The position numbers and the translations under genes were made by a program. Shown piece after piece: positions 28,841 to 36,134 of a stretch of 36,134 nt of DNA (positions are counted from its first letter, which is position 1; each line of letters begins with the position of its first letter). The stretch is from NCBI GenBank assembly GCA_029551925.1, contig JAKPEO010000126.1:1-36134 (forward strand), written 5' to 3'. The stretch is from a bacterium. Its GTDB lineage: Bacteria > JAGOBX01. The notes beneath the pieces were generated by a model. That model was given only the letters and a program-made list of their open reading frames with translations. It was not told where the DNA came from and ran no database searches.

Positions 28841-29171
28841 ATTTTTGAAAAATAAAAAATTAATGATTAAAACAAAATTAGAGTTGATAGTCTAATAATT
28901 GAAATTTTTTTATATAGATTTTTATTTTTATCTTTTTTCAATATAAGATTATGGTTTAAGATTTTATCATAAAGTTATAATAAAAGTTATAAAAAAACAT
29001 TTGTGCATTTGTGCAAGTATGGCACATATATAGTATGCTACATATATGGATGCAACTTTCATTTAACGAAAGTTAAACAATTATTTTTACGTCCTGGGGG
29101 CTTTTTATGGACTTAAAAACAAAAAGATTTATAATAATAATGATAAATCTTAATTTTATTTGGAAGTTAAT
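28841..29171. other. Intergenic region with small repeats upstream of the methyltransferase
   Basis: This stretch of about 330 nt holds no gene that I can support. It contains an 8-nt tandem repeat ATTTGTGC (28999-29014), an inverted repeat CATATAT/ATATATG (29025-29031 and 29042-29048) and a perfect hairpin AACTTTC/GAAAGTT with a 7-nt loop (29054-29074). These lie 100-170 nt before the methyltransferase start and are candidates for its control region. No well-spaced sigma70 promoter was found. Confidence 0.5.
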
Positions 29172-30323
29172 ATGAAAAACAACAAAATCACTTTATTTGA
29201 TTTCAATACGGAATTTGATAAAAAAACTAATTGGAAAAGAGAATCTATTATTAATAAAAATATGTTCTTGGAAGTTTTATCTAAAATCGAAGAACTAAAT
29301 GAAAATAACAAAATAAGATTTGAAACACTAAAAGTTATTGAAATTATCAAAAATCCAGTAAAGGATAATTTTGGATTATTAAATATTTATTCTAATGGCG
29401 ATACTGTTAAAGTAAATAAAGATGTACTTTTAGAAGATTTAAATCAAATAGCAGATTCTCAAACTATCGATAGAGCGAAATATTATATTAGACGACTCAA
29501 AAAAAGTTTAACTGAAATCAAAACGAGTAAGATTAATGATTTAAACTTAAATCGTTGGAAAGAGTATGATGATATCTTAACTGAAAGTTTATGGATTTTA
29601 GATAAAAGAGATAAATCAGGTGCCCACAACGCCAACTATTGGGGTAATTTTATACCACAAATTCCAAATCAATTCTTAAGAAGATATACTAAACAAGGTG
29701 ATTGGATTTTAGACCCTTTTTTGGGAAGTGGGACTACCTTGATTGAATGTAAAAGATTAGGTAGAAATGGAATTGGGGTAGAGTTGTCGCCAGAAGTAGT
29801 AACTATAGCAAAAAAAAACATAGATTCTGAAGAGAATAAATTTAACATTAAAACCGAAGTTATTAATGCGGATAGCACAGAATTGGATTTTAAACAGGAA
29901 TTAGAAAAGAGAAATATCAAATCAGTTCAATTCTTAATAATGCACCCACCATATTGGGATATTATAAAATTCAGTAAAAATAGTAGAGATTTATCAAATG
30001 CAAAAAGCATAGAAGAATTTCTAAATTTATTTGGTAAGGTTGTTGATAACACCTATGATGTTTTAGATGAGGGAAGATATTTTGCTGTAGTCATTGGGGA
30101 TAAATATTCACAAGGTGAATGGATCCCTTTAGCATTTTACACTATGAATGAAGTTTTAAAACGAGGGAAATATATTTTAAAATCTATAATTGTCAAGAAT
30201 TTTGAGGGAACAAAAGGAAAAATTAATCAAAAAAAATTATGGAGGTATAGGGCACTAGTTGGAGGATTTTATATTTTCAAACACGAATACATCTTTTTAT
30301 TTAAGAAGGAGGGAAAAAAATGA
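29172..30323 (+). CDS. DNA methyltransferase (N4-cytosine/N6-adenine), modification half of a restriction system
   Basis: The 383-residue protein is an amino-methyltransferase of the N6_N4_Mtase family. Motif X region (NYWGNFIPQIPNQFLRRYT, 155-173) leads into motif I DPFLGSGTT (181-189) and a GVELSPE ribose-binding segment. Motif IV is HPPYW (258-262), where SPPYW or DPPYW is usual. The first 150 residues are an extra helical domain that may recognise DNA. I start at ATG 29172 because GGAAG lies just upstream; a TTG at 29160 is in frame but has no RBS. Its TGA overlaps the ATG of the endonuclease gene (ATGA), as expected for a coupled modification-restriction pair. Confidence 0.87.
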   Translation: MKNNKITLFDFNTEFDKKTNWKRESIINKNMFLEVLSKIEELNENNKIRFETLKVIEIIKNPVKDNFGLLNIYSNGDTVKVNKDVLLEDLNQIADSQTIDRAKYYIRRLKKSLTEIKTSKINDLNLNRWKEYDDILTESLWILDKRDKSGAHNANYWGNFIPQIPNQFLRRYTKQGDWILDPFLGSGTTLIECKRLGRNGIGVELSPEVVTIAKKNIDSEENKFNIKTEVINADSTELDFKQELEKRNIKSVQFLIMHPPYWDIIKFSKNSRDLSNAKSIEEFLNLFGKVVDNTYDVLDEGRYFAVVIGDKYSQGEWIPLAFYTMNEVLKRGKYILKSIIVKNFEGTKGKINQKKLWRYRALVGGFYIFKHEYIFLFKKEGKK

Positions 30324-31474
30324 CCACACATGTTTTTATTGTAGATACGACTACATTCAAGTATCATTTAGAATATCTTTTTGCAGGAACAGGTGCAAAG
30401 GATCACGTTATTGATTTTAATAACAAAGCAACCACCAAATTAAAACATACAACCGAAAATAATTTGGTTGGAATGATTGCAGACTCTCAAAGAATCAGAA
30501 TGGGTGATTTTATTATTTTTTATTTGCAACAAAATTATTCTACAAAAGTTTTGGAAGGTAAGTTTTATGGTATTTTTAAAGCGAAAGAAGATTTATCTTT
30601 TTTGGACAATAATGATACTAAACAATTCTTAAAAAAAGAACTTAAAAAGTCTTTAACATTTAGGACAATGCTTGAACCTTTTGAGGTTTATCCAAAAGGT
30701 GTTACAGAATGGGAGGCATTAGACGAAATAAAACATATTCAATCGCCCAATCAAATGCTTTGGAGTTTAATTTATAGAAAATTAAAAGGTAATCGAGGAA
30801 ATACTATGATTACAATTTATGAAAGTGAAAGACTTTTTAAATTATTAAAAGATAAAAATAATAGACAAAAGCTTTCAGGACAAAATTTTACTTTTGACCT
30901 CTGTACCCAAGAAATAAAAGGGGACAATACTTCCCATAATTACACCGGAAGAAAAAATAAAATAAATATTCTTCCAAGATTGATTGAAAAATGTAAATCT
31001 AAAAAAGCGTTTGAAATTCATTTGCAGACGTATATTGTTCAAAATATTGGTAGAGGTATTAATAATGAATTGGATAAATGTTTACTTAATGGCTTAGATA
31101 TTGAATGGTTGGGAAATGAAGTTTCTTGTGGCGTAGGAATGCAGAGAATAGACATAATGCTTTCTTTGGTTAAGGAAAACATTAGGATTGTTTTGCCTAT
31201 TGAACTAAAATCTGTTGAAGCAACCAAAGATAATGTTATTCAAATTCAAAGGCATGTTGATTGGTTAGAACAATATTATATTCCTAATAGAATAAGTGAT
31301 ATTCAACCTGTTTTAATTTCTAAAAAAATAGACGATAAGAATTCAGAAAATTATAATAATATTATAGTTAGCTTCAAACAATTTAATAAAAAGAATTGTA
31401 GATGTATGCCCTTAAAATATATTGAATTTGAATTATCAAATAATAATCTGATATTTAAAGAAATAAATTATTAG
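30320..31474 (+). CDS. Putative restriction endonuclease: EVE-like N-terminus plus PD-(D/E)XK nuclease
   Basis: The 384-residue protein has two parts. The N-terminal 1-165 contains MGDFIIFYLQQ and EGKFYGIFKAKE, a pattern resembling EVE/PUA-like base-reading domains. The C-terminal part carries a nuclease core like that of NucS/DUF91 enzymes: helix with E232, D278 (QRIDIML), E295-L-K297 (IELKS) and QIQRHVDWLEQYY (308-320). It starts inside the last codon of the methyltransferase, with GGAGGG upstream, so the two are co-translated. It is predicted to cleave DNA lacking, or bearing, a particular modification. The EVE assignment is by eye and less certain than the nuclease motifs. Confidence 0.75.
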   Translation: MTTHVFIVDTTTFKYHLEYLFAGTGAKDHVIDFNNKATTKLKHTTENNLVGMIADSQRIRMGDFIIFYLQQNYSTKVLEGKFYGIFKAKEDLSFLDNNDTKQFLKKELKKSLTFRTMLEPFEVYPKGVTEWEALDEIKHIQSPNQMLWSLIYRKLKGNRGNTMITIYESERLFKLLKDKNNRQKLSGQNFTFDLCTQEIKGDNTSHNYTGRKNKINILPRLIEKCKSKKAFEIHLQTYIVQNIGRGINNELDKCLLNGLDIEWLGNEVSCGVGMQRIDIMLSLVKENIRIVLPIELKSVEATKDNVIQIQRHVDWLEQYYIPNRISDIQPVLISKKIDDKNSENYNNIIVSFKQFNKKNCRCMPLKYIEFELSNNNLIFKEINY

Positions 31475-32084: not shown

Positions 32085-35000
32085 ATGGACAGACAAACAT
32101 TAAAGCAAATCATCGTAAATACATTCGAGAGTAAGTTTGATGAAAAAAACTACAAAAAATTTCTCAAAAATTTATTAAAATTCTTTGATGAAAAAAACAC
32201 TTTCAGTTATGTAGGGCAGTTTATCCCCGATGCATACAAAGATAAAATAAGTTCTTTTGAACGCATTGGTAAATACACCTACGATGACAAAGAAATAGAT
32301 CTTTTGATAGTAAATATAAAAAAAGAAAGCAAATTAGAACGGGCTCGCACATCTCAAAGAAATTTTATTTCTTGGTATTTAAAGGGGTCAAGGGGAGGCA
32401 AGCTTAAAGATGCGGCACTTGTGGCTTTTGTCTCACCTGAGAGCGATGACTGGCGGTTTTCGCTTGTGAAAATGGAATATAAGTTTGAGCAAACAACTAC
32501 TGGAAAAATTAAGGTGAAAGAAGATTTTACCCCTGCAAAGCGTTGGTCATTTTGGGTTGGGCCAAACGAGAGTTCGCATACAGCACAATCGCGTTTTTTG
32601 CCTATCCTAGAAAACGATGATTTTAAACCTACTCTTGATGATCTTGAAAATGCTTTTAATGTTGAGATAGTAACAAAAGAGTTTTTTGAAAAGTATAGAG
32701 ACCTTTTTATAAAAACAAAACAACAACTTGATAAGATTGTAAAAAAAGATGAAAAAATAAAAAAAGAGTTTACAATAAAAAAAATTAACACCGTTGATTT
32801 TGCCAAAAAACTTCTTGGTCAAATCACTTTTCTTTATTTTCTTCAAAAAAAAGGATGGTTTGGAGTTGAGAAAGGAAAAAATTGGGGAACAGGTCCAAAA
32901 GATTTTATACGCCAATTATTCAATAAAAAGTATGGTAAATATACCAACTTCTTCAATGATATCCTTGAACCTTTGTTTTACGAAGCATTAAGAACCGACA
33001 GAAGCCCAGCAGATCATTTCTATAGTCGATTTAACTGTAAAATACCATTTCTAAACGGAGGTCTTTTTGACCCAATAAATAATTACGACTGGGTTAATAC
33101 TGAAATATTGCTATCAAATGATCTATTTTCAAATGAAAATAAAACAAAAGAAGGAGATATAGGAGATGGAATTTTAGATATATTTGATCGATATAATTTC
33201 ACTGTTAATGAAGAAGAGCCATTAGAAAAAGAGGTAGCACTTGACCCTGAACTGCTTGGTAAAATTTACGAAAAACTTAATGCTATCAGGCAAGACAATT
33301 TTGATGAATACTTAAAAGTTATCTCATCTGGCAACAAAGGCGAAGAAAATAAATTCAACAAAGAGTATGGTGTTTATTATACTCCGAGAGAGATAGTGCA
33401 CTATATGTGTCAGGAAAGTATAATCAACTTTTTAGCAACAGAACTTAATAGTAAAGTGAGACAAGACGACTTGGAAGAATTTGTTTTATATGCTGATCTA
33501 ATATACGAACATGAAAAAACCGCTTTACAAAAGAGCGAAGCAATAAATAGAGGTGAGATAAAAGGGACTAAATACGAACATAAGATACCGCAAAGCATTA
33601 GAGAACACTCAAAAGAGATAGATAAGTTACTGGCAAATATTAAAATATGTGACCCCGCAATAGGCTCTGGTGCTTTCCCTATAGGGATGCTTCAGGAAAT
33701 TGTAAAACTAAGAAGGTTGCTTTCTATATATTGTAATACAGGCATTCCTGCCTGTAAATTTGAAAATTCACACGCTGATGAAGTCCATATCACCCATCGC
33801 AACTTGCCTCACTGGACAAAAAAAGGTTCAATTTACTGGGTTACTTTTAGACTTGCAGACTCTTTACCACAGGAGAAACTTGAAATATGGAAAAGTGAGC
33901 GTGATGAATGGTTGAAAAAACATCCACAACCATGGAATGATGAAGAGTGGCAAGAGTTCAATAAAAATTTTTTGGGACGATTAGAAAACTGGTTAGACTC
34001 AGGGTATGGTTCTTGTGTTTTATCTATACCAGAGATTAGGGAAAAGGTAAAAGAATGCATTATGAAATATGATGGCGTTCGTCTAAAGATACATGCAGTT
34101 GTTATTATGCCCAATCATGTTCACTTACTAATTGAACCTCTTATGAAATATTCTTTATCAGAAATTCTGAAAGGTATAAAAGGTGCAAGCGCCAATGAGG
34201 TTAATAAAATTTTAGGCACTACAGGAAAGAAAGTTTGGATGGAAGAATCATATGACCATATTGTTCGTAGTGAAAAAGAGTATTTTCATTTTATCAATTA
34301 TATTAAGGAAAATCCAACTAAAGCCCATTTGACAGTGGATAATTACTGGCTCTATGTGGCACAGGTATTCTTGCTTGTGGATAATAAAGATACACAGACA
34401 GGAATGTCTGTGCTACATTCTGCTGATACACAGACAAGAATGTCTGTGCTACTTCCTCCTGATTCACAGACAGGAATGTCTGTGCTACATTCTTCATACG
34501 ATTTAAAACGCCATTGTATTGAAAATTCTTTGTATGGAGTGGATATTGATAGCGGAGCAGTTGAGGTATGCAAACTCAGATTTTGGCTATCTATGATTGT
34601 GGATGAAGAAGATTTTAAAACCATAAAACCACTGCCAAACCTCGATTATAAAGTGGTTTGTGGTGATTCGCTCCTGGGAGTAGAAAAAGATTTATTTAAC
34701 AATCAAGCTTTTGAAAAACTTGAAAAATTAAAACCGCAATATTTTAACGAAACTAATCCAAACAATAAACAAAAATTAAAAAAAGAAATTGACAAAATAA
34801 TTGATGAAATAACCAACGGACACAATGAGTTTGATTTTGAGGTCTACTTTTCGGAGGTGTTTCATCAGAAAGGTGGCTTTGATGTAGTCATTGCCAATCC
34901 GCCGTATGTTCAATTACAAAAGAGCAGTGGAAGATTTGCTAATTTGTATCAAAACAAAGGATTTAGTGTATTTGATCGTATGGGTGATATCTATTGTCTT

Positions 35001-36134
35001 TTTTACGAAAAGGGAATAAAAATACTCAAAGAGGGCGGTCATCTTTGCTTTATAACCTCCAATAAATGGATGCGTGCCGGTTATGGCGAAAAGCTGAGAA
35101 ACTTTTTCTTACAGTATAATCCGAAAGTACTAGTGGACTTAGGACCAGGTGTATTTGAAAGTGCTACGGTAGATACAAACATTATATTAATTCAAAAAGT
35201 GCAAAAACAGCTCTTAAGTGTAAGGGCTGTAACTTTGGCCAAAGACGAAGATATCAATATAGCTAACCAGCTTACACAGCTTGGTGTAATACTTGAAAAA
35301 CTTAGTAAAGATGCCTGGTTTATTGGCTCAAGTGCCGAGCAACGACTTAAAGAAAAAATCGAACGCATAGGTAAGCCGCTTAAAGATTGGGATGTGAATA
35401 TTTACTATGGAATAAAAACCGGACTTAACGAAGCCTTTATTATAAGTACCGAAAAGCGTAATGAAATATTGGCGAATTGCAAAACAGAAGATGAACGCCG
35501 TCGCACTGAAGCAATTATTAAACCTATTCTTAGAGGTAGAGATATCAAACGCTACTACTACGAATGGGCTGGGCTGTGGGTGATAGTTATCCCTGCTGGT
35601 TGGACCAATGAAAATAAAAAAAATGAGGACCCAGAAATATTTATTAAAAAGAATTTTCCATCACTAATGAATTATTTAATTCCATTTGAAGATAAAGCAA
35701 AAAAACGAGATGATCAAGGTGATTATTGGTGGGAACTTCGCGCGTGTGCCTACTACCCCGAGTTTGAGAAGGAGAAGGTGGTGTGGCAGAGAATAACACA
35801 AGAACCAACATTTTGTTTAGTAAAGTCAGGTGTATTAATTTTAGATAGTATGGCATTTTTTACAGGGAAAAAATTGAAATTTATTATGGCTCTATTAAAC
35901 TCAAGGTTAATTTATCAATATGTTAATATGATAGTTCACCAATATGGTTTTACAGGATATAGATTATCAAATCAATATGTAGAAATTATTCCCCTTCCCC
36001 CCATCACAGAAGAAAACCAACATATTGTCAACCAAATAGAATCCCTTGTGGATAAAATCCTTGCATCCAAAAAACAAAATCTACAGGCTGACACAACTAA
36101 ATTAGAGGAAGAAATAGACCAGCTGGTGTATCAA
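32085..36134 (+). CDS. Eco57I-like restriction-modification enzyme carrying an in-frame RAYT transposase (3' end outside window)
   Basis: One frame is open for all 1350 codons from ATG 32085 (AGGTG six bases upstream) to the window edge, with no stop. The host enzyme has an N-terminal region with EIDLLIVNIKKESKLERARTS in pieces near residue 70, a helical part, GVYYTPREIVHYM, methyltransferase motif I DPAIGSGAF (523-531), GVDID (about 819-822), motif IV NPPY (938-941) and a C-terminal target-recognition region (ILRGRDIKRYYYEW). The end LVYQ suggests only a few residues are missing. Residues about 551-803 are foreign: a RAYT transposase plus REP repeats, in frame. Without them the protein has the usual length for type IIG enzymes. 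Activity after insertion is unknown. Confidence 0.85.
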   Translation, partial: MDRQTLKQIIVNTFESKFDEKNYKKFLKNLLKFFDEKNTFSYVGQFIPDAYKDKISSFERIGKYTYDDKEIDLLIVNIKKESKLERARTSQRNFISWYLKGSRGGKLKDAALVAFVSPESDDWRFSLVKMEYKFEQTTTGKIKVKEDFTPAKRWSFWVGPNESSHTAQSRFLPILENDDFKPTLDDLENAFNVEIVTKEFFEKYRDLFIKTKQQLDKIVKKDEKIKKEFTIKKINTVDFAKKLLGQITFLYFLQKKGWFGVEKGKNWGTGPKDFIRQLFNKKYGKYTNFFNDILEPLFYEALRTDRSPADHFYSRFNCKIPFLNGGLFDPINNYDWVNTEILLSNDLFSNENKTKEGDIGDGILDIFDRYNFTVNEEEPLEKEVALDPELLGKIYEKLNAIRQDNFDEYLKVISSGNKGEENKFNKEYGVYYTPREIVHYMCQESIINFLATELNSKVRQDDLEEFVLYADLIYEHEKTALQKSEAINRGEIKGTKYEHKIPQSIREHSKEIDKLLANIKICDPAIGSGAFPIGMLQEIVKLRRLLSIYCNTGIPACKFENSHADEVHITHRNLPHWTKKGSIYWVTFRLADSLPQEKLEIWKSERDEWLKKHPQPWNDEEWQEFNKNFLGRLENWLDSGYGSCVLSIPEIREKVKECIMKYDGVRLKIHAVVIMPNHVHLLIEPLMKYSLSEILKGIKGASANEVNKILGTTGKKVWMEESYDHIVRSEKEYFHFINYIKENPTKAHLTVDNYWLYVAQVFLLVDNKDTQTGMSVLHSADTQTRMSVLLPPDSQTGMSVLHSSYDLKRHCIENSLYGVDIDSGAVEVCKLRFWLSMIVDEEDFKTIKPLPNLDYKVVCGDSLLGVEKDLFNNQAFEKLEKLKPQYFNETNPNNKQKLKKEIDKIIDEITNGHNEFDFEVYFSEVFHQKGGFDVVIANPPYVQLQKSSGRFANLYQNKGFSVFDRMGDIYCLFYEKGIKILKEGGHLCFITSNKWMRAGYGEKLRNFFLQYNPKVLVDLGPGVFESATVDTNIILIQKVQKQLLSVRAVTLAKDEDINIANQLTQLGVILEKLSKDAWFIGSSAEQRLKEKIERIGKPLKDWDVNIYYGIKTGLNEAFIISTEKRNEILANCKTEDERRRTEAIIKPILRGRDIKRYYYEWAGLWVIVIPAGWTNENKKNEDPEIFIKKNFPSLMNYLIPFEDKAKKRDDQGDYWWELRACAYYPEFEKEKVVWQRITQEPTFCLVKSGVLILDSMAFFTGKKLKFIMALLNSRLIYQYVNMIVHQYGFTGYRLSNQYVEIIPLPPITEENQHIVNQIESLVDKILASKKQNLQADTTKLEEEIDQLVYQ
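33737..33756 (-). repeat. Left REP-like hairpin of the RAYT element
   Basis: TACAGGCA and TGCCTGTA form a perfect 8-bp stem around loop TTCC. Read on the minus strand the loop is GGAA, the same as in two of the three right-hand repeats, so left and right copies are inverted relative to each other, as in REP pairs around RAYT genes. Confidence 0.8.
34393..34484 (+). repeat. Three right-hand REP-like hairpins at exact 36-nt spacing
   Basis: CACAGACA-(GGAA/AGAA/GGAA)-TGTCTGTG occurs at 34393-34412, 34429-34448 and 34465-34484. Each is a perfect 8-bp stem with a 4-nt loop. The 36-nt period equals 12 codons, so the frame passes through unchanged and encodes repeated QTGMSVL / QTRMSVL peptides. 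Confidence 0.9.

Follow-up and report, generated by a model that had tools for sequence, protein, structure and literature searches.

How a transposase, together with its repeats, can persist inside the open reading frame (ORF) of another enzyme is the question raised by the 3' end of contig JAKPEO010000126.1 (bacterial assembly GCA_029551925.1), whose full 36,134 nucleotides, one whole contig (C131 of G000), are the window analyzed here. A single plus-strand frame runs from position 32085 to the contig end, 1350 codons without a stop, and encodes a type IIG restriction-modification enzyme interrupted in its methyltransferase domain by a REP-associated tyrosine transposase (RAYT) flanked by repetitive extragenic palindromic sequences (REPs). 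The open frame, and the interruption of an Eco57I-like enzyme by a RAYT with an intact HUH pair and catalytic tyrosine, had been claimed in a first-pass annotation of the sequence, and both were borne out, the residues being H678, H680 and Y739 and the host being assigned to type IIG family PDLC03596 by PADLOC (1312 bits). RAYT (or TnpA-REP) genes with flanking REPs are known as REPtrons (PMC6006769, PMC3116915). The insert is a complete REPtron, ordered REP-RAYT-inverted REPs, without an ATG start or a stop of its own.

An N-terminal region, the methyltransferase motifs and a specificity domain lie on a single chain, as in type IIG enzymes, and motif I (DPAIGSGAF, last residue 531) is intact. 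Pfam matches above cut-off were obtained for Y1_Tnp (residues 651-723), Eco57I (814-1020) and TaqI_C (1146-1304), while the contig end cuts the composite ORF at its 3' side, a few residues before the ends of its relatives. With its host domains, motif I, NPPY and TaqI-like C-terminal domain, the protein resembles other Eco57I-like enzymes of PDLC03596, most of which it differs from in being interrupted by a REPtron. Alignment with uninterrupted relatives placed the insert at about residues 550-802, with ~253 residues in the window against ~5-9 in the relatives (Table 1). This loop, here called site a, follows the motif I helix and precedes the GVDID strand, as the first reading had proposed, and the borders given there (33737-34490) were close to those of the alignment.

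Within the insert, Y739 is as invariant as the HUH histidines among the 11 aligned copies embedded in type IIG enzymes. The NCBIfam model REP_Tyr_transpos matched residues 666-750 with 60 bits, below its 80-bit cut-off, and the RAYT core modelled alone found 4ER8, a REP-bound TnpA-REP, as its top Foldseek match (E 1.2e-6, with low TM-scores of 0.41/0.48), the remaining matches being IS200-type TnpAs. The structure model that had been called for was computed for residues 429-1045: in it, the RAYT core has predicted local distance difference test (pLDDT) values, taken by block, of 65-92, and the predicted TM-score is only 0.49, too low for reading how the domains are placed relative to each other. 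The REP stretches had pLDDT values below 50, which would suit the flexible, disordered linkers predicted at the ends of the insert.

The RAYT lies between tagged palindromes, one carrying GTAA on the left and three carrying GTAG on the other strand on the right, the latter inverted with respect to the former and translated as (D)TQTGMSVL. In the whole genome of the window the palindrome has four copies, and in a second carrier genome, G055, it has two, all of them at the insert (searched with at most one mismatch); genome-wide dispersal of REPs was not seen, no copy lying beyond the insert in the window genome at that threshold. These flanking REPs and their confinement to the insert had escaped the first reading. 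The window genome encodes two other Y1 transposases, both of a distant type. A recent invasion of this genome by the element was rejected, since neither another REP of this type nor another close RAYT is present; the lack of further REPs and the distant type of the other Y1 transposases indicate that the element came in with the gene.

Table 1. Features of the composite gene and its neighbor in the 36,134-nucleotide window (residues are those of the composite ORF).
Feature	Position	Strand	Details and basis
Composite ORF: type IIG restriction-modification enzyme with embedded REPtron	32085-36134	+	3' end cut by contig end
Host part 1, residues 1-549: type IIG N-terminal region and start of methyltransferase domain	32085-33731	+	PADLOC PDLC03596 1-458; alignment to uninterrupted relatives
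Methyltransferase motif I region, DPAIGSGAFP, residues 523-532	33651-33680	+	
In-frame insert, ~253 codons, in site a between motif I helix and GVDID strand	33732-34490	+	~60 empty-site relatives compared
Left REP, GTAA and palindrome ACAGGCATTCCTGCCTGT	33733-33756	+	Palindrome 33738-33755; translated CNTGIPAC
RAYT core, residues 569-757, TnpA-REP fold	33789-34355	+	Pfam Y1_Tnp, NCBIfam REP_Tyr_transpos, profile match, Foldseek 4ER8
HUH motif H678-V679-H680	34116-34124	+	Histidines invariant in 11 aligned type IIG-embedded copies
Catalytic tyrosine Y739 (YIKENP)	34299-34301	+	ISDra2 TnpA alignment; Y motif of PMC6006769
Three right REPs, 36-bp tandem	34389-34488	-	GTAG-tagged; palindromes 34394-34411, 34430-34447, 34466-34483
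Host part 2, residues 803-1350: methyltransferase remainder (GVDID 818-822, NPPY 938-941) and TaqI-like specificity domain	34491-36134	+	
Separate type II DNA methyltransferase PDLC03351, outside the element	29160-30323	+	

The possibility of a singleton, entertained in the first-pass annotation, was overturned by the search proposed there for Eco57I-class proteins with an internal RAYT. Scanning of named genomes yielded 80 loci of the enzyme family, of which about 60 are empty and others carry a RAYT at the same loop. G055 carries its insert in an enzyme 66-67% identical to that of the window, and the RAYTs at site a of L040-L045 are 64-75% identical to the window's; L217 and L260 were added as carriers at this site, and L046 has a more distant RAYT there. 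A second site, b, also missing from the earlier anatomy, lies upstream of motif I, about 100 residues before site a, and is occupied by RAYTs in L051, L054 and L056. Window-type RAYTs were thus found in PDLC03596 enzymes of thirteen genomes at two loops (the window, G055 and 11 more), under record names that include Omnitrophota, Ignavibacteria, Smithella, Planctomycetota and Acidobacteria. A chimeric contig, which was to refute the arrangement, is excluded by independent genomes (G055 and the 11 others) whose genes of this family hold RAYTs of the same type. No fused relative was found in plasmids or phages at 80% query coverage. In other type IIG enzymes (L065, L068, L085, L089, L090, L092, L106 and L118) the site-a loop holds unrelated short in-frame repeat peptides such as SREGGNP or RQDACAT, which marks it as a hot spot where small palindromic sequences insert.

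REPs are concentrated in the composite genes: the thirteen carrier loci hold 69 REPs within the composite ORFs (44 kb) against 9 in 91 kb of flanks, the majority of the 69 being parts of the inserts themselves, and nearly all carriers of window-type RAYTs translate them in the same two frames. REPs without a RAYT occur at site b in the site-a carriers L040-L043, L045 and L260, and near residue 225 in L043, L045 and L260, while L056, whose RAYT occupies site b, holds a group of REPs at site a. In L219, whose RAYT belongs to another lineage, a REP pair stands at residue 225, where its close relative L065 has one REP-like stretch. The simplest reading is that the RAYT would deposit REPs in those loops of its gene that can accept them. 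In G055 the sequence to the left of site b is joined directly to that on the right of site a, and motif I has thereby been lost, exactly the structure to be expected if REPs at the two sites had recombined.

RAYTs were also searched for blind to the host gene, with at most eight or nine candidates scored per genome and host genes named from profile matches; some ambiguous long frames from G+C-rich genomes (L231, L234, L235, L182 and L255) were left out of the counts. Among 386 genomes, eight RAYTs lay in frames of more than 800 codons, hosted by type IIG enzymes (two, the window included), HsdR (one), DUF1156-type methylases (four) and an SNF2 helicase (one). Six close RAYTs (E <= 1e-40) were found in the phylum to which the Ignavibacteria carrier belongs, and every one of them was in a type IIG, HsdR or DUF1156 gene; so were 7 of 20 in the phylum of the Acidobacteria carrier, where most others stood alone. 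Planctomycetota hosts also comprised alanyl-tRNA synthetase (AlaRS, three), FabZ (eight), PurH and a flavin oxidoreductase, which ruled out the idea that RAYTs are embedded in restriction genes only. The AlaRS genes L224, L226 and L229 (G443, G516 and G464) carry an in-frame RAYT between the aminoacylation and editing (SAD) domains; G443 and G464 each have a single copy of AlaRS, and the gene of G516 is split by a frameshift. In FabZ-like dehydratases of eight genomes of the Planctomycetota phylum (L199, L203, L205, L208, L209, L213, L214, L225) the RAYT sits in the hotdog domain, whose C-terminal half follows it, so that both halves are present. The FabZ and single-copy AlaRS cases imply that essential enzymes can tolerate in-frame RAYTs. 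As the compared genomes indicate, restriction genes by the dozen, and a small number of essential ones, share the arrangement across several phyla; it is a recurrent one and no freak insertion.

Placement within these other hosts was also repetitive. In the type I restriction protein HsdR of four genomes (L178, L262, L263, L264), the RAYTs seem to share one location, where the nuclease part borders on the helicase part, and in DUF1156/HmaB-type methylases of G049 and six further genomes (L028, L147, L179, L181, L266, L268, L269) they follow the same motif, FTPRQLVALTTFSDLV; L180 and L220, of the same type, have another RAYT site common to both. At L111 and L118, an uninterrupted type IIG gene is preceded by a PLD-SNF2 helicase gene that carries an in-frame RAYT, and this RAYT is a close relative of the one in the type IIG gene of L046.

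A tree of 98 RAYTs required 28 changes of host label against 58.9 for shuffled labels (none of 200 shuffles was as low), a result that shows RAYT lineages bound to host families. Window-type RAYTs formed one clade (support 100/96, and 97 on a larger tree) and made up 14 of the 15 rows of the type IIG group on the larger tree; one member, L261, resides in a different type IIG enzyme. All 15 RAYTs found at E <1e-90 were embedded, and the AlaRS and FabZ RAYTs shared a common clade. On the host tree, site-a carriers were scattered, with at least 4 forced changes, and a short tree of the insert flanks, built on few columns, forced at least 3 for this site. Purely vertical descent of one insertion is disfavored by these host trees, with recombination tracts complicating the picture; separate arrivals at the same loop, recombination of alleles and losses may all contribute. 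Identity between L040 and L042 reaches 92-98% across most of residues 440-870 (numbered on L040), in insert and flanks alike, against ~80% elsewhere, a block that on its pattern of identity is plainly a recombination tract. Transfer of the insert alone between them, as its low synonymous divergence had suggested, was discarded because the low-divergence block reaches into the host flanks.

The ratio of nonsynonymous to synonymous substitution (dN/dS), whose comparison between host and insert had been recommended at the outset, was 0.08-0.24 for the RAYT core and 0.05-0.16 for the host N-terminal part between carriers (NG86, synonymous sites being saturated in many pairs). Within the L040/L042 tract, which reflects time spent inside the gene, there are 19 synonymous changes at 106 sites against 22 nonsynonymous changes at 461, a higher rate for the synonymous class (Fisher p = 2e-5). 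The substitution patterns show purifying selection on the insert, whose catalytic residues have been preserved; in a useless passenger, the host would hold the frame open but the amino acids would not be kept. Of 12 examined RAYTs embedded in type IIG enzymes, 10 lack an ATG in the 25 codons that precede the core, unlike most stand-alone RAYTs, which have one. In the window, as had been noted before, the RAYT has no stop and no ATG near its core, and only TTG codons occur near its N-terminus.

Taken together, we consider it probable that these elements are gene-borne REPtrons that are translated along with their hosts, accommodated in disordered loops, made only with those hosts and spread with restriction genes. 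The REPtron would be an open cassette whose REPs and RAYT are translated in the frame of the type IIG gene, at a loop on the surface of the methyltransferase domain where additional sequence is tolerated. Such a loop and the disordered linkers of REP peptides would allow two folded domains to coexist on one polypeptide, and the composite protein is presumed to be made and folded, with a host enzyme that would still work. The RAYT, which would be produced only as part of the enzyme, retains an HUH/Y active site maintained by purifying selection, and would send copies of the REPs to other permissive loops close by in that gene. Its spread between bacteria would take place with the restriction gene and by recombination among restriction alleles, separate arrivals at the same loops being needed too. 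Two meanings offered by the first-pass annotation gain from these data: a protein-neutral insertion is supported by the RAYTs in single-copy AlaRS and by the predicted disordered linkers, and expression only with the host is supported, at the level of sequence, by the missing upstream ATGs. Some observations weigh against the gene-borne REPtron: recombination may explain the scattered host tree more than new insertions do; most records are metagenome bins; the saturation of synonymous sites affects the dN/dS estimates; and in G055 the RAYT is intact while the enzyme has lost motif I and has a frameshift at residue 934, damage implying that some carrier enzymes cannot work.

The third meaning, a functional fusion, would make the RAYT a working part or controller of the restriction enzyme, a single-strand nuclease recruited independently by several restriction families and kept for the host's benefit, adding single-strand nicking or hairpin recognition for the restriction system to use. 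Purifying selection, intact catalytic residues, repetition in the unrelated restriction or defence families (type IIG, HsdR, DUF1156/HmaB, PLD-SNF2 helicase) and lineages tied to host families all agree with it. Most relatives of the window enzyme, nevertheless, do without the insert (about 60 of 80 loci), DNA nicking would be senseless in AlaRS, FabZ or PurH, where related RAYTs reside, and G055 retains an intact RAYT within a broken methyltransferase; we therefore regard this explanation as unlikely, though it is the strongest of the alternatives to a gene-borne REPtron.

A one-off in-frame insertion, tolerated as a passive passenger and slowly decaying, would fit a loop that in other relatives also accepts short unrelated repeat peptides, but it is very improbable given the low dN/dS of the core, catalytic residues invariant across phyla and the many genomes involved. 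Removal of the insert to give an uninterrupted enzyme, whether intein-like, intron-like or by precise excision of the IS200 type, could be suspected from the repeated use of the same loop and from flanking hairpins that in principle resemble IS200/IS605-type ends. Like inteins and homing elements, the window-type RAYTs are monophyletic, recur at fixed positions in conserved enzymes although their hosts are scattered, and are transferred with their flanks. Unlike them, they show no sign of removal or of site-specific homing cleavage; Pfam and NCBIfam scans of the composite protein found no splicing (Hint) domain, and in positions 33000-35200 no intron or other RNA family came near its Rfam gathering score, the microRNA matches of that scan being dismissed as chance scores of the REP hairpins. 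To our knowledge RAYTs do not splice proteins, and excision or splicing is hardly credible. Equally implausible is internal initiation that would yield the RAYT as a protein by itself, for which the TTG codons would be available: upstream ATGs are missing from most embedded copies, and without a stop of its own any such product would include the rest of the methyltransferase.

About 600 bp upstream of the composite gene, the window encodes the PDLC03351 methyltransferase of Table 1, followed by an overlapping protein of 384 amino acids without Pfam or PADLOC match (29160-31474 for the two). The pair may represent a second restriction-modification system.

Comparison with described systems places the element among REPtrons, with which it shares the HUH/Y transposase, the TnpA-REP fold and inverted, GTAG-like tagged palindromes on both sides. 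In known REPtrons, however, the RAYT gene has its own start and stop, whereas this unit is translated from end to end within a different gene, to which its REPs are restricted. Rickettsia palindromic elements and REPs lying in frame within ORFs are known (PMC3733652) and are likewise palindromic repeats translated in genes, probably tolerated in loops, but they are peptides of 20-80 residues without a transposase, while here the transposase itself lies within the host ORF. REPs also occur in frame inside tnpA-REP genes of subclass 2.4 (PMC6006769), again with the protein reading frame preserved; there the REP is a guest of the RAYT, and here REP and RAYT are guests of a restriction enzyme. The same survey set aside unexpectedly long proteins as fusions or annotation errors (PMC6006769). 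Our search of open-access papers turned up no account of entire RAYTs lying in frame within other genes, whether restriction or housekeeping, or forming host-bound lineages; the composite gene is real and recurrent, and as a variant apparently undescribed.

The long 'fusion' proteins set aside by earlier surveys would thereby find an explanation. A whole transposase and its repeats can apparently live as an open cassette within a coding gene and persist there under selection, across several enzyme families and phyla and even in an essential tRNA synthetase. Restriction genes move horizontally, and we know of no demonstration that RAYTs are autonomously mobile; the composite genes suggest a route by which RAYTs may spread, as passengers of horizontally moving restriction genes, and they offer clean material for testing the function of a RAYT domain within another enzyme.

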